Numbered from the stretch's first letter, positions 55,415 through 63,947 are shown. The stretch: 64,000 bases of DNA from Thermococcus aggregans (GCF_024022995.1 NZ_CP099582.1:1178001-1242000), one strand, 5' to 3'. Made by a program: numbers and translations. Notes: generated by a model not told the origin, from the letters alone.

Positions 55415-55546
55415 TGATGGGGGTGATAAACAAATGAGATAAAACATATTATCTATCCTAGAGAAGGAATATAGAATTTATGTTAGTGGATAAGTTGAAT
55501 ATTTCGTTATTCTAAGTAAACTAAATTAATTGAGGGGGAATTAAAA

Positions 55547-55666
55547 ATGGAGGGATATGTCTTAACAGGTTGGTTGATGTTAGTTTTCATTCCACTAGCA
55601 AGTTTGGGATACATGACATGGTGGAGTTACAATATTCTAAAGAAAGAAGAAGGTGAAGAAGGATGA
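55547..55666 (+). CDS. Small symporter-associated membrane protein 1
   Basis: 39 residues: one transmembrane helix (GWLMLVFIPLASLGYMTWW) followed by a charged tail (LKKEEGEEG). RBS GAGGGGG at 55532-55538. Its TGA overlaps the ATG of the SSS symporter (ATGA, 55663-55666), so translation is coupled. A similar ORF (60341-60448) stands before the second symporter in the same arrangement, which strongly supports that both are real and act as accessory subunits. Confidence 0.75.
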   Translation: MEGYVLTGWLMLVFIPLASLGYMTWWSYNILKKEEGEEG

Positions 55667-57156
55667 TAGAAGAAGCGATATTCATAGGATACTTGATTCT
55701 TTTACTTATAGTTGGTTGGTTAGGAACTAAATACACGAAAACTGTTGAAGATTTCTATGTTGCTGGCAGAAAAATGGGAGCGTGGGTTATGGCATTTACT
55801 CATGAAGCAAGTGCTATGAGTGGTTGGGTATTCCTAGGAGCTGCTGGGATGTGTTATGCAATGGGCTACACTGGACTATGGAATGTACCGGGAGTTGTCA
55901 TTGGTACTGTCATGGTTTTTGTGCTTTGTGCTATCCCTACTTGGAGACTAGGGAAATTATTAGGAGCCATAACTTTAACAGATGTTTTAAAGGCTAGATA
56001 TTATGATGATGAAAACCGCCTATCTACTGTTGTAAGTGCAGTGATTCTTTTGGGCTCATGGTTGTATGTACTAGCTCAATTAGTAGCCTCAGGTAAGACA
56101 TTAGAATTCTTTTTTGGTTGGAAATATGCATATGGAGTTATTTTAGCAGGGTTAATAATTACATTATACACAATGGCAAGTGGATTGTTTGCTGTAGCAT
56201 GGACAGACTTCATTCAAGGAGCAATAATGTTACTTGGATTAACACTTGCAGTAATTGCTGGGATTAAGGAGGTTGGGGGTATTACCCCAACGTTTCACGC
56301 CTTACATTCAATTGATCCTAGTTTAGTACAGCTTGCTCCCACTATGGCAGTACTTGCGTTTGGAATAAGTTTTCTACTAGGAGAGGGGACTGTGTCCTAT
56401 CTCGGACAACCCCATCTTTACCCAAGGTATCTTGCATCCAAGTCTCCAAAAACTATTGCAAGAGCAGGATTAATAGCAACAGTTGTAATCATTATTTTTA
56501 TGATAGGAGCAGCTTTGGGGGGTTTTGCTGGTAAGGTACTATGGCCTGATCCGTCAGTATTTCCAAGAGGAGATCCGGAGTACGTACTGTTACAGTTGTT
56601 TAGATACGTATACCCACCAGTTATTGCTGCTCTCTTCACAACTGCAGTTTTAGCAGGAGCCATGTCAACAGCAGACTCCTGGCTTCTCGTAGCAGCTAGT
56701 ACAGTAGCTTGGGATATTTACACAAGGATATTAGGTAAAGAAGTTGACCAAGAAAAACATGTTCAACTTTCTAGAATTGTCGTTCTAATTATAGGAATTA
56801 CAACAATACTAATTGCTCTAAAACCTAGCTCTGTATTATGGCTTGTTGCTTATGCATGGGGAACATTTGCTCAATTAGGAGTTATTATAGTAGGCGGGTA
56901 CTACTGGAAGAGAGGCACCCAAAAGGGTGCTATATGGGGATTAATAGCAGGAGTTGTCACTAATATTGTTTGGTATCATACACTGAGGGATTTAGCTCAT
57001 CCTGCACCCATAGGAATGGCTGTAGGTTCTATAGTTTATATCATTGTTAGTTTGCTAGATAAAGAACCTCCAAAGAAAGCACAGGATTTAGTAGTCTACG
57101 CTAGGACGGGTAAACTTCCTGAAGACTCCGAGTGGAAGCAATTACAAGCTTCATGA
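55663..57156 (+). CDS. Sodium:solute symporter (SSS family) 1
   Basis: 497 residues, about 13 helices, LeuT-fold SSS transporter (PutP/PanF group). Family motifs: EDFYVAGRKMGAWVMAFTHEASAMSGW, LVASGKTLEFFFGWKYAYGV, MASGLFAVAWTDFIQG, YLGQPHLYPRYLA and FTTAVLAGAMSTADSWLLVAAS, whose S/T residues include the Na2-site signature. The cytosolic tail (DLVVYARTGKLPEDSEWK) is identical to that of the second copy. Adjacent enzymes suggest an amino-acid-like or organic-acid substrate. Shares several exact blocks with 60445-61947 (see repeats). Confidence 0.88.
   Translation: MIEEAIFIGYLILLLIVGWLGTKYTKTVEDFYVAGRKMGAWVMAFTHEASAMSGWVFLGAAGMCYAMGYTGLWNVPGVVIGTVMVFVLCAIPTWRLGKLLGAITLTDVLKARYYDDENRLSTVVSAVILLGSWLYVLAQLVASGKTLEFFFGWKYAYGVILAGLIITLYTMASGLFAVAWTDFIQGAIMLLGLTLAVIAGIKEVGGITPTFHALHSIDPSLVQLAPTMAVLAFGISFLLGEGTVSYLGQPHLYPRYLASKSPKTIARAGLIATVVIIIFMIGAALGGFAGKVLWPDPSVFPRGDPEYVLLQLFRYVYPPVIAALFTTAVLAGAMSTADSWLLVAASTVAWDIYTRILGKEVDQEKHVQLSRIVVLIIGITTILIALKPSSVLWLVAYAWGTFAQLGVIIVGGYYWKRGTQKGAIWGLIAGVVTNIVWYHTLRDLAHPAPIGMAVGSIVYIIVSLLDKEPPKKAQDLVVYARTGKLPEDSEWKQLQAS
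56530..56608 (+). repeat. Exact 79-bp block shared with 61315-61393
   Basis: Inside the symporter genes, GGTAAG...GATACG is identical over 79 bases to the second copy. The bases on both sides differ. Synonymous sites within the block show no change, unlike the rest of the two genes, so recent conversion is likely. Confidence 0.85.
56626..56694 (+). repeat. Exact 69-bp block shared with 61411-61479
   Basis: GCTGCTCTC...GTAGCA, identical over 69 bases, coding for AALFTTAVLAGAMSTADSWLLVA in both symporters. Separated from the 79-bp block by only 17 diverged bases in each copy. Confidence 0.85.
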
Positions 57157-57169
57157 ATTTTTAAATTTT
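57047..57169 (+). repeat. Exact 123-bp block shared with 61838-61960
   Basis: Covers the last 36 codons, the stop and 13 bases of 3' flank (TTTTTAAATTTT). Identity ends four bases before the flanks diverge. Because it extends past the stop codon, it reflects DNA exchange and not protein constraint. Confidence 0.85.
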
Positions 57170-57180
57170 ATTTTTTTAAT
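57157..57180 (+). terminator. T-rich transcript end of symporter 1
   Basis: TTTTTAAATTTTATTTTTTTAATTT immediately after the stop codon is a run of T's of the sort used for archaeal intrinsic termination. The second symporter has a similar but shorter run at 61947-61970. Confidence 0.45.
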
Positions 57181-57213
57181 TTCAACTGATGAAAGTGGTA
57201 AAAATCCAGTTAG

Positions 57214-57294
57214 TTGAATTTCTCAAGACCACACAAGAAGGAGATTGCCGAGGGTATTGAGAAACTAGCTAAACTTTATAAGGAAAAGGTTTGA
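57214..57294 (+). pseudogene. 3' remnant of an aminotransferase gene
   Basis: A frame without start reads LNFSRPHKKEIAEGIEKL-AKLYKEKV and ends at TGA 57294. It resembles the end of the aminotransferase at 62736-63947 (FSYPSEEEIVEGIKRLAKTCKEEG). Hence a second aminotransferase-like gene was probably present here and was lost by deletion. Confidence 0.55.
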
Positions 57295-57371
57295 AGGTAC
57301 ACAGTTTATTTTTTGCTTTGGCTCTGTACCTACTGGTAATAGCATTAATCGGGTGGGCAAGGGAAACTTGA
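57291..57371 (+). CDS. 26-residue membrane peptide
   Basis: TTG start overlapping the previous stop (TTGA): MKVHSLFFALALYLLVIAL followed by IGWARET, one hydrophobic helix with a short polar end. Tandem TTGA overlaps on both sides suggest a translationally coupled string. It is short and could be a chance frame; the next ORF overlapping in the same manner raises the odds. Confidence 0.4.
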   Translation: MKVHSLFFALALYLLVIALIGWARET

Positions 57372-57499
57372 GAAAAGAAGTAAGAGCAATTATAGGAGTG
57401 GTGGGTATTGCAGTTGCAACTTTAAATATAATTCCAGTAGCAATTGGGGCGGCAATTGTTATATGGTTAAAGCTCTTCAGAGGAAAGCTCAAAGTTTAA
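57368..57499 (+). CDS. 43-residue membrane peptide
   Basis: TTG 57368 overlaps the stop of the 26-residue ORF (TTGA). The product is basic-hydrophobic-basic: LRKEVRA, a long helix (IIGVVGIAVATLNIIPVAIGAAIVIW), then LKLFRGKLKV. This resembles small subunits that accompany NSS or SSS transporters. No transporter gene is left next to it, so it may be the residue of a lost module. Confidence 0.4.
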   Translation: MRKEVRAIIGVVGIAVATLNIIPVAIGAAIVIWLKLFRGKLKV

Positions 57500-57606
57500 G
57501 GGTTAGCTTCTCTTGCTTTTCCCTTTTTCACTAAATCCCCATAGTAGAAAAATAAAATCAGGTAAACATGTAGATATTACTAAATAAATGTTATGAGGTG
57601 ATAAAT

Positions 57607-58797
57607 TTGTTATTTAACCGGAAAAGGGCTTTAGAAATTATGGAGAAGTATGACTTAGACGTGCTTGTATCTACCACACCGGAAAACGTCCTTTATCTTA
57701 GCAACTACCAAAGTGTTAGCCACAAATTGTTAAAAGAAGTTCAGATATACGCAGTATTTCCACGTGATCTTGAACCGGTCTTGATAATACCAATGTCCGA
57801 CTTAGATCTCTATGCAGATAACCCCAGTTGGATAAAGGATGTGAGAACCTATGGCACGTTCTATATAGAGGAAGGAGAATCAACCGAACTTTCGAAATCG
57901 GAATTGAGACTTGCTAAACTCCAAAAGATAGCTAAACCAGGGTTAGATCCCTTTACAGTCTTAACAAATGTTTTATCAGAAAAAGGGCTGGACAAAAGCA
58001 ATATAGGATTAGACGAAATGGGCATAGACTACGTCACACAGTCTAAACTTAAGGCTATGTTACCAGAGGCTAATTTTAAGCCCGCTTATAACATACTTAG
58101 AGAAATCAGGATGATTAAAACAAAGGAGGAAATAGAATTATTACGCAAATCTGCTGAGATATCACAAAAAGCAGTAGAGAGGATGCTGGAGTCCGTAAAA
58201 GAAGGTGTAACTGAACGAGAGCTTGCCCAAGAACTTGAAGAAGTAATAGTTAGAAACGGTGCAAAACCCTTCCTCACAGTTCTAGGGTGTGGCACTAGAA
58301 GCGCTTTTCCCAACGCATTGCCAAGTGATTATAAAGTTAAAAAAGGTGATATAATCCGTTTTGATGGTGGATGTGAATACAAAGGGTACTACTCAGACAT
58401 AGCAAAAATAGCAGTATTGGAAAGGGCCAATGAAAAAGTCAAGAAGTACTTTAAGGCAATCGCTTTAGGAGTTGAAGAAGCAGCTAATGCTATAGAACCA
58501 GGGGTCAAGGCATCAGAAATATTCCAGATAGCAATGGAAGCAGTTAAAAAAGCAGGAATACCACATTATAGAAGGCATCATGTCGGACATGGTATTGGTG
58601 CAGAGTGCTATGATCCACCCATACTTAGGCCAAGTAATCAGACTGTTTTGGAACCAGACATGGTAATAAACATCGAGACACCGTACTATGAATTTGGTTT
58701 AGGCGGACTTCAAGTCGAAATAACTATTCGAGTGACACAGGATGGTTACGAATTGTTAACCCCTCAAACTTTTGATAATGATTTATTAATAATATGA
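57607..58797 (+). CDS. M24-family peptidase (Xaa-Pro dipeptidase-like)
   Basis: 396 residues from TTG 57607, four bases after GAGGTGAT; GTG 57598 lies in the RBS. Creatinase-type N-domain (1-130) and pita-bread C-domain with all five metal ligands: Asp in IIRFDGGCEYKGYYSDIAK (two), His in RRHHVGHGIG, Glu in NIETPYYEF and Glu in GLQVEITIRV. Could cleave X-Pro peptides or, as some M24 members do, C-N bonds in non-peptides (creatine-like). The threonine-synthase-like gene follows by 15 bases. Confidence 0.85.
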   Translation: MLFNRKRALEIMEKYDLDVLVSTTPENVLYLSNYQSVSHKLLKEVQIYAVFPRDLEPVLIIPMSDLDLYADNPSWIKDVRTYGTFYIEEGESTELSKSELRLAKLQKIAKPGLDPFTVLTNVLSEKGLDKSNIGLDEMGIDYVTQSKLKAMLPEANFKPAYNILREIRMIKTKEEIELLRKSAEISQKAVERMLESVKEGVTERELAQELEEVIVRNGAKPFLTVLGCGTRSAFPNALPSDYKVKKGDIIRFDGGCEYKGYYSDIAKIAVLERANEKVKKYFKAIALGVEEAANAIEPGVKASEIFQIAMEAVKKAGIPHYRRHHVGHGIGAECYDPPILRPSNQTVLEPDMVINIETPYYEFGLGGLQVEITIRVTQDGYELLTPQTFDNDLLII

Positions 58798-58812
58798 AAG
58801 AGATGATGTCAG

Positions 58813-60084
58813 ATGGCAGATAGAGTCATAGGTTTAAAATGCTTAAATTGTGGTGCAGAATACCCTCTCAGCAGAATGTTCGAGGGTTGCCCTAAATGTG
58901 CAACAGACAAATTCAGATCTAACCTAACAGTAGTATACGATTACGACGCAATTTCAAAACTTATTTCCAAAGATCTCTTCCTAAAGAGATCAAGACTTAT
59001 GGGAGTGTGGAGATTCAAAGAGCTTTTACCAGTTGAGAACGAAAAATACATGATAACACTGGGAGAGGGTAATACTCCATTACTCAAATGTAAAAACTTG
59101 GAAAAAATCTTGGGACTTAGAAATCTCTATGTAAAAGATGAGTCGAGGAATCCTACTTGGTCATACAAAGACCGGTTATGTTCTGTTGCTATCTCAAAGG
59201 GGCTAGAGTTTGGTGCTAAAGTGGCCACAGTAGCAACAACAGGTAATCATGGGGGCTCTACTGCCGCATACGCTGCTAAAGCAGGGATGGATTGTGTTAT
59301 ATTTACCTTGCCCACAGTCTCGGACATAATGTTAACTTTGATGCATATATATGGAGCAAAAGTAGTGCCCATTACAACACCCGAAGGCAGATGGGCATTA
59401 ATGAAAAAGTGTGTAGAAGAATTAGGATGGTATCCTACGGGCACATATTCGTCTCCAATGCCTACGGGAAATCCCTACGGGGTTCAGGGGTATAAGACCA
59501 TAGCTTTTGAAATAGCTGAGCAGTTGGAGTTTGAAGTGCCTGACTGGGTGGTAGTACCCACGGTTTATGGAGAGGGGTTATACGGTATATGGTTGGGGTT
59601 TAATGAATTTCAAAACTTAGGTATTACTGATGATCTCCCACGGATGATAGCTGCTGAGACAGAAATGGGACCCATAGCGAATGCATTAAGAAAGAATCTT
59701 GACTACATTGAAAAAGTCCCATCGAAACCCACTGTAGCATTATCGATAGCTGGTACTATAAGTAGTTACCAAGCATTAAAGACTATGCGTGATTCAAATG
59801 GCTATGCCATGCCAGTTACTGATGATGAAATATTACAAGCACAAAAAATGTTAGCTAAGCATGAAGGAATTTTTGCGGAACCAGCTTCCTCTGCTTCTTT
59901 AGCAGCCGTGATAAGATTAGTAGAAGAGAACAGGATTGATAGAGATGAAAAAATAGTACTAGTGATTACATCAACAGGGCTAAAGGATATAAGGCCTGTG
60001 ACTCCAAAGAAGTTACCAGCAATAGAGCCAGTATGGAAAGATCTTGAAATATTTCTGAAAAAGCACTATAATTTTCAGCTATAG
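58813..60084 (+). CDS. Threonine-synthase-like PLP enzyme with zinc ribbon
   Basis: 423-residue fold-type II PLP enzyme. N-terminal rubredoxin-like zinc ribbon, C10-x2-C13 and C26-x2-C29. PLP lysine K119 in TWSYKDRLC; GEGNTPLLKC; ATTGNHGGSTAAYAAKAG; the phosphate-binding Gly-rich loop. Though like ThrC, the catabolic setting suggests a related lyase/dehydratase: beta-replacement enzymes such as diaminopropionate ammonia-lyase or threonine dehydratase share this fold. I do not assign a reaction. Just 15 bases after the M24 gene. Its stop is directly followed by the second 47-bp promoter element. Confidence 0.75.
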   Translation: MADRVIGLKCLNCGAEYPLSRMFEGCPKCATDKFRSNLTVVYDYDAISKLISKDLFLKRSRLMGVWRFKELLPVENEKYMITLGEGNTPLLKCKNLEKILGLRNLYVKDESRNPTWSYKDRLCSVAISKGLEFGAKVATVATTGNHGGSTAAYAAKAGMDCVIFTLPTVSDIMLTLMHIYGAKVVPITTPEGRWALMKKCVEELGWYPTGTYSSPMPTGNPYGVQGYKTIAFEIAEQLEFEVPDWVVVPTVYGEGLYGIWLGFNEFQNLGITDDLPRMIAAETEMGPIANALRKNLDYIEKVPSKPTVALSIAGTISSYQALKTMRDSNGYAMPVTDDEILQAQKMLAKHEGIFAEPASSASLAAVIRLVEENRIDRDEKIVLVITSTGLKDIRPVTPKKLPAIEPVWKDLEIFLKKHYNFQL

Positions 60085-60086
60085 GT

Positions 60087-60133
60087 ATTTATAAAGTCTT
60101 CATTGTATATTTTCAAACATAACTGTACATTTT
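60087..60133 (+). promoter_or_regulatory. 47-bp promoter/operator element, copy 2
   Basis: Near-copy of 54332-54378 (42/47). TATA box ATTTATAAAG, then TTCATTGTATATTTTCAAAC and TGTACATTTT. In this copy TGTA...TGTACA gives a further palindromic core. It begins three bases after the stop of the threonine-synthase-like gene and drives the second symporter module. Confidence 0.65.
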
Positions 60134-60340
60134 GGGAGATAAAAATATGTGCTAATGATTGATTACATATATCTGGAACCATAGTAGATAAAAGGAAACT
60201 GGGGGTGATGGCCAAACTTTTGTCATATCCTCAGTAGTAGTTCCATACTTCATTTGCAAACTTCACCATCCCTGACGTAATGCAAATTGAACATTTCGTT
60301 GTTAGCAACTAATTAAGATAAGAAGTGAGGGGGATTAAAA
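60134..60340. other. Leader between promoter copy 2 and second symporter module
   Basis: About 200 bases without a gene. GGGGGTG-ATG at 60207-60216 opens a frame that stops after nine codons (MAKLLSYPQ), perhaps the remnant of a lost gene at the place where copy 1 has the M29-like gene. The last 60 bases (ATTTCGTTGTTAG... GAGGGGGATTAAAAATGG) resemble the leader before the first accessory gene. Confidence 0.35.
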
Positions 60341-60448
60341 ATGGAAGATTACGTGGTAATTGCTGGTCTCTGGGTTTTTGGAATTCCTTTGGTTTCAATA
60401 TTAGTGTCTGTCCTATACTGGTACAAGGTCAGGAGGGGCATAGAATGA
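60341..60448 (+). CDS. Small symporter-associated membrane protein 2
   Basis: 35 residues: a membrane helix (VIAGLWVFGIPLVSILVSVLYW) and a basic tail (YKVRRGIE). RBS GAGGGGG, ATG 60341. Its TGA overlaps the symporter ATG (ATGA, 60445-60448). It shares the position, coupling and shape with the ORF at 55547-55666, but sequence identity is low, so each small protein probably fits its own symporter. Confidence 0.75.
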   Translation: MEDYVVIAGLWVFGIPLVSILVSVLYWYKVRRGIE

Positions 60449-61947
60449 TAGAAGAAGCGATATTCATAGGATACTTGATTTTTTTACTTATAGTTGGTTG
60501 GTTAGGAACAAGAAGAACTAAGACTGGTGAAGACTTCTATGTTGCTGGCAGAAAAATGGGAGCGTGGGTTCTAGCGTTTACTCATGAGGCTAGTATTATG
60601 AGTGGTTGGGTATTCCTAGGAGCTGCTGGTTTTGTATATGAACATGCAGTTGCAGGAACATGGGTAGTGCCTGGAGATGTGCTTGGTACATTAATGGTAC
60701 TTATTCTGTGTGGAATTCTAGTACACAGGATAGGAAAATTAACGGGAGCTATATCAGTAATAGACGTTTTGGAAGCTAGATACTATGATGAAGATAAACG
60801 TATTATCAGATTAATTTTAACCTTGGTAATTTTATTTGCATCATGGGCATATGTAGTGTCTCAGCTAGTAGCAGGGGGCAAGACGCTAGAATTCTTTTTT
60901 GGCTGGAAATATGGCTATGCAGTTGTGATAGTAGGGATGATAATTATACTCTACACAATGGCAAGTGGAATGCTTGCTGTAGCGTGGACTGACTTCGTCC
61001 AAGGACTATTGATGCTGATAGGACTCTCCCTAGCTATAATAGTTGCGCTTAAAGAAGTAGGTGGTTTTGCACCTATGCTCGATAAACTTCATGCAATGGA
61101 TCCTTCATACACAAAGCTTGCTCCCAATTTTCTAGTAACTATGCTTTCATTTACAGTACTTTTGGGTTCAGGAACTTTTGGATATCTAGGTCAGCCCCAT
61201 ATACATGCAAGATATCTTGCAGCTAAGGATGAAAAAACAATTGCAAATGCAACAGTAATATCAGTGGTTGTAATCTCTATATTCATGATAGGAGCAGCTT
61301 TAGGAGGGTTAGCGGGTAAGGTACTATGGCCTGATCCGTCAGTATTTCCAAGAGGAGATCCGGAGTACGTACTGTTACAGTTGTTTAGATACGCATTTTC
61401 TCCAGCGATGGCTGCTCTCTTCACAACTGCAGTTTTAGCAGGAGCCATGTCAACAGCAGACTCCTGGCTTCTCGTAGCATCCACATCTGCTTCATGGGAT
61501 TTCTATAAACAGTACCTTAGAAAACCGATAGATCAGAAAAAACAAGTTAATATTGCTAGAATTACAACATTAGTTCTTGGATTCCTCGCAATTCTGTTTT
61601 CCTTCAAACCAGAATCCGTATTCTGGCTTGTGGCATTAGCATGGGGAACATTTGCATCAGCGATTGGCCCTCCATTAGTTCTTGGTTTATATTGGAAAAG
61701 AGCTACCAGAAAGGGTGCTTTGGTAAGTATAATAGTAGGAGCCATAGTAAATGCTGCATGGCACTATGCTGGTTTAGAAGCTTATTCACATCCTGCAGTT
61801 CCAGGCATGGCAGCTGCAACGATAGCTCTTGTTGTTATTAGTTTGCTAGATAAAGAACCTCCAAAGAAAGCACAGGATTTAGTAGTCTACGCTAGGACGG
61901 GTAAACTTCCTGAAGACTCCGAGTGGAAGCAATTACAAGCTTCATGA
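60445..61947 (+). CDS. Sodium:solute symporter (SSS family) 2
   Basis: 500 residues from ATG 60445 (MIEEAIFIGYLI), not the longer frame that overlaps the accessory gene. Paralogue of the symporter at 55663: same N-terminus, motifs EDFYVAGRKMGAWVLAFTHEASIMSGW, FLGAAGFVYEH, YLGQPHIHARYLA and the shared conversion blocks. The central helices differ (SWAYVVSQLVAGGK, FAPMLDKLHAMD), so the substrate range probably differs too. Confidence 0.88.
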   Translation: MIEEAIFIGYLIFLLIVGWLGTRRTKTGEDFYVAGRKMGAWVLAFTHEASIMSGWVFLGAAGFVYEHAVAGTWVVPGDVLGTLMVLILCGILVHRIGKLTGAISVIDVLEARYYDEDKRIIRLILTLVILFASWAYVVSQLVAGGKTLEFFFGWKYGYAVVIVGMIIILYTMASGMLAVAWTDFVQGLLMLIGLSLAIIVALKEVGGFAPMLDKLHAMDPSYTKLAPNFLVTMLSFTVLLGSGTFGYLGQPHIHARYLAAKDEKTIANATVISVVVISIFMIGAALGGLAGKVLWPDPSVFPRGDPEYVLLQLFRYAFSPAMAALFTTAVLAGAMSTADSWLLVASTSASWDFYKQYLRKPIDQKKQVNIARITTLVLGFLAILFSFKPESVFWLVALAWGTFASAIGPPLVLGLYWKRATRKGALVSIIVGAIVNAAWHYAGLEAYSHPAVPGMAAATIALVVISLLDKEPPKKAQDLVVYARTGKLPEDSEWKQLQAS

Positions 61948-61981
61948 ATTTTTAAATTTTTAATTTCGTTGGAGGTGGCGA

Positions 61982-62689
61982 ATGATGATAAGAAGATGCA
62001 AATTGGGGGTATTAGTTCCTTCCTCTAATATTACTATGGAGTATGAACTTTATAAGATGGCACCAGACGGAGTGTCGATTCATTTCTCGAGAATACCTCA
62101 AACAGAAGATACAGAAGAGCAATTGGCAGCTATGATTGATTATGTTCCCCAAGCTGCCGAATTATTAGCTCATGCAAGAGTTGATGCGATAGCATTCGGT
62201 TGTACTAGTGGTAGTTTCATAAAAGGAGTTGGATATGACAAACAAATTATAGAGAGCATACAACAAAACACTGGAATACCCGCAACTACTACAACAACTG
62301 CTGTTTTAGAAGCCTTGGACTTAATGGGGTTGAAAAAAATCTCAGTTGGTGCACCATACACTGATCCGATAATGCAGAAATTAAAGAAACTACTGGAAGA
62401 AAATGGATTCAAAATAACAAAAATAAAAGGCCTTGGTCTTCTCAAGGGTGAAGGAGACTTACCCATAGATGAAACGTATAAATTAGTCAGAGAAATTGAT
62501 ACTCCTGAGTCCGATGGGATCTTTATAAGCTGTACGGATTTCAAAACTGTCGAAATTTTAGAATTGCTAGAAGAAGATCTCGGAAAACCTGTTGTTTCGA
62601 GCAATCAAGCAACTATGTGGAAATTGTTGAGATTATCGGGGTTAAAGACCAAAATAAGAGGGTTTGGTGCATTATTACGAGAATTCTGA
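61982..62689 (+). CDS. Maleate isomerase / Asp-Glu racemase superfamily enzyme
   Basis: 235 residues of the arylmalonate-decarboxylase/maleate-isomerase (PF17645-like) group. Two catalytic cysteines sit in symmetrical positions: C74 in AFGCTSGSF and C183 in FISCTDFKT. VPSSNITMEYE near the N-terminus and the VGAPYTDPI loop are typical of maleate isomerases. Two Cys suggests racemase or cis-trans isomerase and not a one-Cys decarboxylase. RBS GGAGGTGG; two adjacent ATGs. The gene lies 34 bases behind the symporter and 46 before the aminotransferase. Confidence 0.75.
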   Translation: MMIRRCKLGVLVPSSNITMEYELYKMAPDGVSIHFSRIPQTEDTEEQLAAMIDYVPQAAELLAHARVDAIAFGCTSGSFIKGVGYDKQIIESIQQNTGIPATTTTTAVLEALDLMGLKKISVGAPYTDPIMQKLKKLLEENGFKITKIKGLGLLKGEGDLPIDETYKLVREIDTPESDGIFISCTDFKTVEILELLEEDLGKPVVSSNQATMWKLLRLSGLKTKIRGFGALLREF

Positions 62690-62735
62690 GAAGATGTGGT
62701 ATGTTTCATCAAATGGAAAAGATGGGGGGATAAAA

Positions 62736-63947
62736 ATGAATTATGAAAAATACTATTCGGAAAAAGTGAAAGGTATGAGGCCCTCAATAATTAGGGAATT
62801 GTTAAAGAAGTATGTAGGAAAAAAAGGCCTTATCTCTCTAGCAGCTGGCAATCCTAGCCCAGAAACTTTTCCAACAAGGATAATCAAAAAACTTGCAGAT
62901 GAGGTGCTTGAAAAGTATGGAAAGGATGCACTCCAGTATGGTCCTACGCCTGGTTATTCGGGACTTATAGAGCAGATAAAGAACTTCATAGAAGAAAGAT
63001 ACAAAATAGATTCCTCAAAAGTGGGCGTGTTGATAACGTCTGGTGCACAACAGGTGCTTGATTTAACTGGTATGACTTTTCTAAACCCAGGAGACGTTGT
63101 AATCATTGAAGCGCCCACATATGTAGCGGCTATTGATGCTTTTGCTCAGTATGGTCCTGAGTTTGTTCAAGTGCCAGTTGATGAGGAGGGGATGAGGGTT
63201 GATGTGCTTGAGGACAAGCTTAAGAAATTGAAAGCTGAAGGCAAAAACGTGAAATTCGTCTATACAATCCCAACATTTCAAAATCCTGGTGGAGTAACAA
63301 TGAGTGAGGAAAGGAGGAAGTACCTTCTTGAGCTTGCAAACAAATACGACTTTTTAATCATTGAAGATGATCCATACCACGAGCTTAACTATTCGGATAA
63401 AGAACCTCCGCTGCCTATAAAGCACTGGGATTCAGAGGGGAGAGTTATCTACTCTGGAAGTTTCTCAAAAATCCTTGCACCTGGCTTTAGAGTCGGGTGG
63501 ATTGTGGCGGATCCGCAGATTATCAGAAAATTTGAGATTGTTAAGCAACGGCGTGATCTTCACACGAGTAGTTTTTGCCAGTACATCGCTGCAGAGTACA
63601 TAAAAGGAGGTTATCTTAGAGAGCATATTCCAAAGATTAGGGCATATTATAAACCAAAGTTAAAGGTAATGCTTGACGCTTTGGAAGAGTACATGCCGGA
63701 GGGATTTGAGTGGACTAAGCCGACAGGAGGCATGTTTGTTTGGGTAATGGGTCCAAGTGAATTGAATACAACTTCCATGCTAGAGAAGGCCGTGGAGAAT
63801 GGTGTAGTGTACGTTCCAGGTGAAGCGTTTTACCCAGACAGAAGTGTAAAGAACGCTATGAGAGTGGATTTCTCGTATCCAAGTGAAGAGGAGATTGTTG
63901 AGGGAATTAAAAGACTAGCAAAAACATGCAAAGAAGAGGGGGTGTGA
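62736..63947 (+). CDS. PLP-dependent aminotransferase (class I/II, LysN/ArAT-like)
   Basis: 403 residues from ATG 62736 (MNYEKYYSEKVKGM) behind GGGGGGAT. Fold type I: ITSGAQQVLDLTG, PTFQNPGGVTMS, Asp/Tyr at IIEDDPYHEL and the PLP lysine K245 in SGSFSKILAPGFRVGW. YPTF-like IPTFQNPGG and the overall length resemble archaeal 2-aminoadipate/aromatic aminotransferases. In the island it would form the 2-oxo acid from the imported amino acid. Five bases before the next gene, so one operon. Confidence 0.88.
   Translation: MNYEKYYSEKVKGMRPSIIRELLKKYVGKKGLISLAAGNPSPETFPTRIIKKLADEVLEKYGKDALQYGPTPGYSGLIEQIKNFIEERYKIDSSKVGVLITSGAQQVLDLTGMTFLNPGDVVIIEAPTYVAAIDAFAQYGPEFVQVPVDEEGMRVDVLEDKLKKLKAEGKNVKFVYTIPTFQNPGGVTMSEERRKYLLELANKYDFLIIEDDPYHELNYSDKEPPLPIKHWDSEGRVIYSGSFSKILAPGFRVGWIVADPQIIRKFEIVKQRRDLHTSSFCQYIAAEYIKGGYLREHIPKIRAYYKPKLKVMLDALEEYMPEGFEWTKPTGGMFVWVMGPSELNTTSMLEKAVENGVVYVPGEAFYPDRSVKNAMRVDFSYPSEEEIVEGIKRLAKTCKEEGV

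Follow-up and report, generated by a model that had tools for sequence, protein, structure and literature searches.

Two short open reading frames (ORFs) in a 64,000-nucleotide window of the Thermococcus aggregans genome (the whole stretch of DNA analysed here) very probably encode real but overlooked helper subunits of membrane transporters, judging by comparison with related loci. Each lies directly 5' of, and overlaps, a gene for an SSS-family symporter, a sodium-driven uptake transporter, and a one-helix protein is encoded at the equivalent place in all of the nearest symporter subfamilies.

Small ORFs upstream of two SSS symporters

The first-pass annotation had drawn attention to ORFs of 39 and 35 residues, each with a ribosome-binding site (RBS), a single helix and an ATGA overlap with the SSS symporter gene that follows, and all of these features are in place at both loci:

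55532..55538, plus strand: RBS-like GAGGGGG 5' of small ORF A; four-nucleotide core match to the Shine-Dalgarno (SD) sequence
55547..55666, plus strand: small ORF A (39 aa) with one predicted membrane helix; its product is a putative accessory protein of symporter A
55651..55656, plus strand: AGGTGA, the SD of symporter A, located within the codons for the tail of small protein A
55663..57156, plus strand: symporter A, 497 aa, of the SSS family (PF00474); its start and the end of small ORF A overlap as ATGA (55663-55666)
60327..60333, plus strand: RBS-like GAGGGGG 5' of small ORF B, at the equivalent place
60341..60448, plus strand: small ORF B (35 aa) with one predicted membrane helix; its product is a putative accessory protein of symporter B
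60432..60436, plus strand: GGAGG, the SD of symporter B, located within the codons for the tail of small protein B
60445..61947, plus strand: symporter B, 500 aa, of the SSS family (PF00474); its start and the end of small ORF B overlap as ATGA (60445-60448)

Translation gives MEGYVLTGWLMLVFIPLASLGYMTWWSYNILKKEEGEEG (39 aa) for small ORF A and MEDYVVIAGLWVFGIPLVSILVSVLYWYKVRRGIE (35 aa) for small ORF B, with the GAGGGGG standing seven to eight bases before the ATG in both cases. Each protein has one hydrophobic segment, with a best 17-residue Kyte-Doolittle mean of 1.98 for A and 2.48 for B. The two have in common a Pro within that segment, an acidic N terminus (ME.Y) and positive charges past the helix, so that, by the positive-inside rule, the topology is probably N-outside/C-inside. 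Neither protein matched Pfam at E<=1 or any NCBIfam model, and protein B, the one searched against PDB chains, had no match there at E<=10. No closer relative of the pair was found among 115 genomes of the phylum.

The duplicated symporter module and its surroundings

Both symporters exceed the gathering cut-off of PF00474 (22.8 bits), scoring 242.2 bits for A and 275.0 bits for B. Against TIGR02121, the PutP sodium/proline symporter model, they score 309.5 and 332.5 bits, below the equivalog cut-off of 515.5, and the symporter tree places them outside the bacterial PutP clade. Their genes are 3.3 kb apart within one amino-acid/peptide catabolism cluster, which also contains genes for an M29-like protein, an M24 peptidase, a threonine-synthase-like enzyme, an aminotransferase (62736-63947) and an Asp/Glu-racemase-like protein near arylmalonate decarboxylase and the ectoine-utilisation protein EutA, both below cut-off. 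Because the symporters are embedded in this catabolic cluster, they probably take up amino acids, peptides or derivatives of these, for instance an ectoine-like solute. Two remnants are located between symporter A and the M24 gene:

57214..57291, plus strand: about 25 codons resembling the C terminus of the aminotransferase (62736-63947), with a local score of 66 in one frame versus 25-30 in the others
57291..57499, plus strand: C-terminal part of a TRAP transporter fused permease of the TAXI type, recognised from a motif and split over two frames

An ORF of 48 aa at 57353-57499, considered as a third small membrane protein, was rejected as such; it is the TRAP-permease remnant.

Symporters A and B are 65% identical as proteins and 72% identical as DNA. 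This identity is a mosaic, near-identical tracts alternating with tracts of about 55% identity. The former, synonymous sites included, cover approximately codons 1-25, 281-340 and 464-500, the remainder being ~54% identical, a pattern that looks like gene conversion after duplication. The leader 5' of the small ORF, the small ORF and the symporter all correspond between the two copies, and since the leader is recognisably common to both, it belongs to the duplicated unit. The three elements are one module that was duplicated as a unit in the T. aggregans genome. The small proteins, at 31% identity, have diverged further than the symporters, as had been remarked earlier; the co-evolved specificity that was read from this contrast is not supported, because the symporters' 65% is a mosaic and says little on co-evolution, and because small partners are in general the less conserved member (see below).

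Presence of a small partner follows the symporter subfamily

A survey for small ORFs upstream of SSS genes, proposed in the first-pass annotation, was carried out on 94 Thermococcaceae genomes and outgroups and revealed strict, subfamily-wide linkage. Partners were scored by a fixed rule: an ORF of 24-80 aa with a hydrophobic segment, its stop codon lying between -60 and +30 nt from the symporter start. By this rule a partner, conserved in sequence, precedes all 50 of the symporters tested in three subfamilies, P1 (6/6), P2 (11/11) and P3 (33/33), whose symporters are about 32-38% identical to symporter B; the window pair scores 2/2. For subfamilies P4, P5, P6 and P8, one divergent symporter and bacterial PutP, the rule found an ORF in 3/75 cases, with unconserved sequences, and this ~4% is the null rate of chance ORFs under the rule. 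P7 symporters have a different partner, of about 70 aa and two helices, in 11/11 cases. Loci of NF045580, a modelled 'symporter small accessory protein', gave 12/12; these loci were found via the small protein, and the informative part is therefore that an SSS gene comes next in all of them. A lack of such ORFs beside homologous symporters, which had been named as the observation that would tell against the proposal, is thus true only of other subfamilies (P4, P5, PutP) and not of the nearest relatives.

In the symporter tree, partnered and partner-less subfamilies form separate, well-supported whole clades. Entries from named Thermococcus contigs are identical there to family members, in keeping with a window genome from the family of Thermococcus. 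One PutP-like group contains P1-P3 and the window pair together with partner-less PutP and P4, and partners have therefore been gained, lost or replaced over the history of the group. Members of one subfamily do not count as independent events; the weight rests on the consistency of the rule across subfamilies. A profile of the P3 partner gave 54 matches in 53 genomes, 53 of them directly 5' of a P3 symporter and the last at the edge of a contig, with no orphan lacking a symporter among the 54. A profile built from the P1 partners and the window proteins matched strongly only in front of the six P1 symporters and at its own two window members. Partner presence is subfamily-specific, and the small protein is never separate from its symporter.

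This always-or-never rule by subfamily offers a natural comparison of the role of the extra helix. The idea that the helix stands in for a missing symporter helix was rejected, as symporter length does not differ accordingly: partnered symporters are ~490-540 aa long versus ~485-500 aa for partner-less ones. A motif scan of genome contigs, with overly specific motifs, gave five loci. Of its hits, neither a 'WOR-3' contig (L035) with a near-identical Thermococcus gene nor a 'Proteobacteria' contig (L039) from an unverified MAG was counted toward wide spread.

Conservation of the partners and relationships among them

The partners of P1, P2 and P3 have pN/pS values of 0.20, 0.29 and 0.21, respectively, with changes concentrated at third codon positions; they are therefore selected as proteins. 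Along with the linkage and the absence of orphans, this purifying selection in related families upholds the earlier claim that the small proteins are tied to their own symporters. For the window pair pN/pS is 0.67, a single A-B comparison at saturated divergence. Mean identities of small protein and symporter are 0.75 and 0.91 in P1, 0.69 and 0.81 in P2, 0.82 and 0.88 in P3, and 0.64 and 0.73 in NF045580. Since small partners are thus generally less conserved than their own symporters, the contrast in the window pair runs in the usual direction.

P1 partners are 32-39% identical to window protein B and have the motif LW.FGIP in common with it. In empirical tests, B matched the P1 partners with p of 0.0007-0.012, whereas A did no better than shuffled sequences, and the relation of B to P1, like that of P2 to P3, was only marginally supported. 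Profile-profile comparison among the small families gave window versus P1 as its best pair, with E 0.0037 and low probability. A single common family for all partners was accordingly rejected as a claim, profile-profile likeness being too weak, and any sequence relation of the window proteins to the P2 and P3 partners appears weak and unproven. A match of P2 partners to Pfam CydS, weak and below cut-off, was judged compositional. The Thermococcaceae thus hold at least four sequence-distinct one-helix partner families (window type, P1, P2 and P3), none of which scores above a Pfam or NCBIfam cut-off.

Proposed translational coupling and probable role of the small proteins

The SD site of the symporter lies inside the charged-tail codons of the small ORF in both window loci (2/2), in P1 (6/6) and in P3 (32/33), the codons that carry it being GAGGAGGG for Glu-Glu-Gly and GGTGAA for Gly-Glu. 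ATGA overlaps occur in 2/2 window loci, 2/6 in P1, 7/11 in P2 (one a doubtful GTGA) and 32/33 in P3. The charged tail noted in the first-pass annotation is present, and its standing as a functional feature is not established: because the SD lies in the tail codons, the charge is at least partly a by-product of the RBS. This embedded SD warns against taking charged C-terminal tails in ORFs of this type as functional.

We consider it likely, from the sequence comparisons above, that ORFs A and B are translated single-span microproteins that are made just before, and bind, their own symporter as an accessory subunit. We favor this reading because the NF045580 family has been modelled as such and because MAP17 and CbrX are physical precedents, known from experiment, for helpers of SLC5-fold proteins. 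The ATGA overlap and the SD within the small ORF would couple translation of the small protein to that of the symporter, so that the helix would emerge beside a symporter still being synthesized, at a level that matches it. It may then pack against the lipid-exposed face of the symporter and could aid the latter's folding, stability, oligomer contacts or activity. Counting against the subunit reading are the window pN/pS, which is not decisive at saturation, the weak likeness to P1, and the dispensability of CbrX on histidine.

The strongest competitor, which we nevertheless judge unlikely, is that each small ORF is a mere translated leader, from which ribosomes restart on the symporter, the peptide itself being idle. 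Both the ATGA overlap and the position of the symporter SD would suit such a leader. Moreover, the Pseudomonas gene cbrX directs cbrA translation through coupling (PMC6591292), and CbrX, while it binds CbrA, is dispensable for growth on histidine (PMC13022988). A pure leader needs no conserved sequence, however, yet in P1-P3 the amino-acid sequence of the partner is conserved; these partners are without exception hydrophobic single helices, and that of P3 retains a conserved region past its helix. CbrX is itself a coupled leader and a bound subunit alike. Less probable still is that the small proteins are free-standing regulators, which, like MgtR or SgrT, would transiently inhibit their symporter or steer its turnover and would not be constitutive subunits. 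Proteins of similar size do act in this way on other transporters (PMC10710835), but MgtR- and SgrT-type regulators can be made apart from their targets, and here the gene is always directly 5' of the symporter, which suits production at a fixed ratio. That the ORFs are accidental open hydrophobic stretches 5' of two duplicated genes is very improbable despite the chance rate seen under the fixed rule and although direct evidence at the protein level is weak for A and B, since RBS, helix and ATGA overlap are found in both copies in spite of their divergence and an equivalent partner occurs throughout the nearest symporter subfamilies.

If the subunit reading is true, work on archaeal SSS transporters has to include a subunit that may be absent from pipeline annotations. 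The earlier suggestion that ORFs of this length escape automatic gene finding does not hold in general, as the NCBI pipeline names modelled ones (e.g., WP_022276091.1). A more far-reaching proposal, speculative and probably too strong, is that archaeal PutP-like SSS proteins are obligate two-part transporters in which a fast-evolving one-helix subunit, particular to each subfamily, sets substrate choice, ion coupling or thermal stability; the symporter alone, as used in most heterologous tests, would then be inactive or altered.

Comparison with known systems

The closest modelled type is NF045580 (33 positions, equivalog, cut-off 35 bits), whose members are 33-40 aa long with one helix and are encoded directly 5' of an SSS gene. 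It was found in 12 genomes of the same class and on a Bacteroides plasmid, there beside a broken SSS gene. The window proteins have two of its traits, a gene directly 5' of an SSS symporter gene and a single helix within 30-45 aa. Neither A nor B matched the model at E<=10, however, and a search of their own genome gave nothing at E<=0.001. NF045580 members carry the pattern M[LF]GI.DP...YLL..., whereas the window proteins carry ..[FG]IP.. within their helix, and the NF045580 genes examined are without ATGA overlap (0/12), unlike the window genes.

Other small membrane proteins encoded beside SSS genes are DUF3311 with MctP-like SSS, DUF485 with ActP, DUF4212, and YhdT with PanF. These subunits have two helices and 60-110 aa, whereas the window proteins have one helix and no match to these Pfam models; we liken the two-helix type to the ~70-aa proteins 5' of P7 symporters. 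The DUF3311 gene adjoins mctP (PMC9100948).

In Pseudomonas, CbrX is a small hydrophobic protein whose gene lies 5' of, and overlaps, that of CbrA, an SLC5-STAC histidine kinase (PMC6591292, PMC13022988), and a cryo-EM structure has CbrX bound to the SLC5 domain of CbrA (PMC13022988). The gene order, and the fact that the two genes overlap, are as in the window. CbrX differs in being a two-helix hairpin of 58 aa with a 17-nt overlap, against one helix, 35-39 aa and a 4-nt overlap, and its partner is a sensor-transporter, while the window partners are plain symporters. MAP17 (PDZK1IP1) is, like the window proteins as read here, a single-span accessory protein of an SLC5/SSS transporter; it packs on TM13 of human SGLT2/SGLT1 and is essential for SGLT2 activity (PMC9616851). 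In contrast to them it is eukaryotic, not gene-linked and unrelated in sequence (no PDB chain at E<=10, with window protein B searched).

The P1, P2 and P3 partners of the Thermococcaceae share with the window proteins their position, one helix, the Pro within it and the symporter SD in the tail codons. Strict genetic linkage to one symporter subfamily, a trait of bacterial and archaeal SSS/SLC5 accessory subunits, is seen both in the window (2/2) and in these relatives (50/50). The kind is known in outline, and the window proteins appear to be an unmodelled variant of it, not members of a known family: they fail NF045580 and all Pfam models, have no CbrX-like hairpin, and show homology elsewhere only as the weak likeness of B to P1. 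As such they would widen the theme set by SGLT2-MAP17 and Pseudomonas CbrXA, that of an SLC5-fold transporter with a small helper helix.

Mosaic identity of the two symporter genes

The two SSS symporter genes, A (55663-57156) and B (60445-61947), display a mosaic pattern of identity. They are nearly identical, synonymous sites included, at codons 1-25, approximately 281-340 and 464-500, and outside these tracts the DNA identity falls to approximately 55-65%. This mosaic is probably the result of gene conversion. The ATGA overlap marks the start of the first near-identical tract, and the adjoining upstream small ORF has diverged between the copies.

Symporter A is followed by a stretch of degraded coding sequence:

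57214-57499, gene debris after symporter A

The first piece, approximately 25 codons, resembles the C-terminus of the aminotransferase encoded at 62736-63947; the second is the C-terminal end of the permease from a TRAP transporter of the TAXI type, split across two frames. Elsewhere in the same genome, a homologue is found within a 767-aa open frame. The locus of symporter A may once have carried a TRAP uptake system and since lost it.

Partners of related symporters

Symporters of the Thermococcaceae subfamily P7 (L142-L152) have a different type of partner directly upstream, with two helices and approximately 70 aa. In subfamily P3, the symporters of genomes G070 and G009 (L165, L172) carry an in-frame stop near the start beside an intact small partner ORF; these are either recent pseudogenes or sequencing errors. 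A near-identical Thermococcus symporter with its small partner is also present on L035 (JALSOD010000089.1), which is labelled candidate division WOR-3 and is probably a contaminating contig.

Neighboring enzymes

In two related genomes (L140, L141; G079:C8, G084:C1), a similar threonine-synthase-like enzyme lies approximately 3.4 kb from an SSS symporter that belongs to another subfamily, P8, and has no small partner. Adjoining the transporters at 57598-63947 are genes for an M24 hydrolase, a PLP enzyme, an EutA/arylmalonate-decarboxylase-like protein and the aminotransferase. In outline, this set is similar to ectoine-degradation clusters, with the matches of its proteins to ectoine models all scoring below the equivalog cut-offs.
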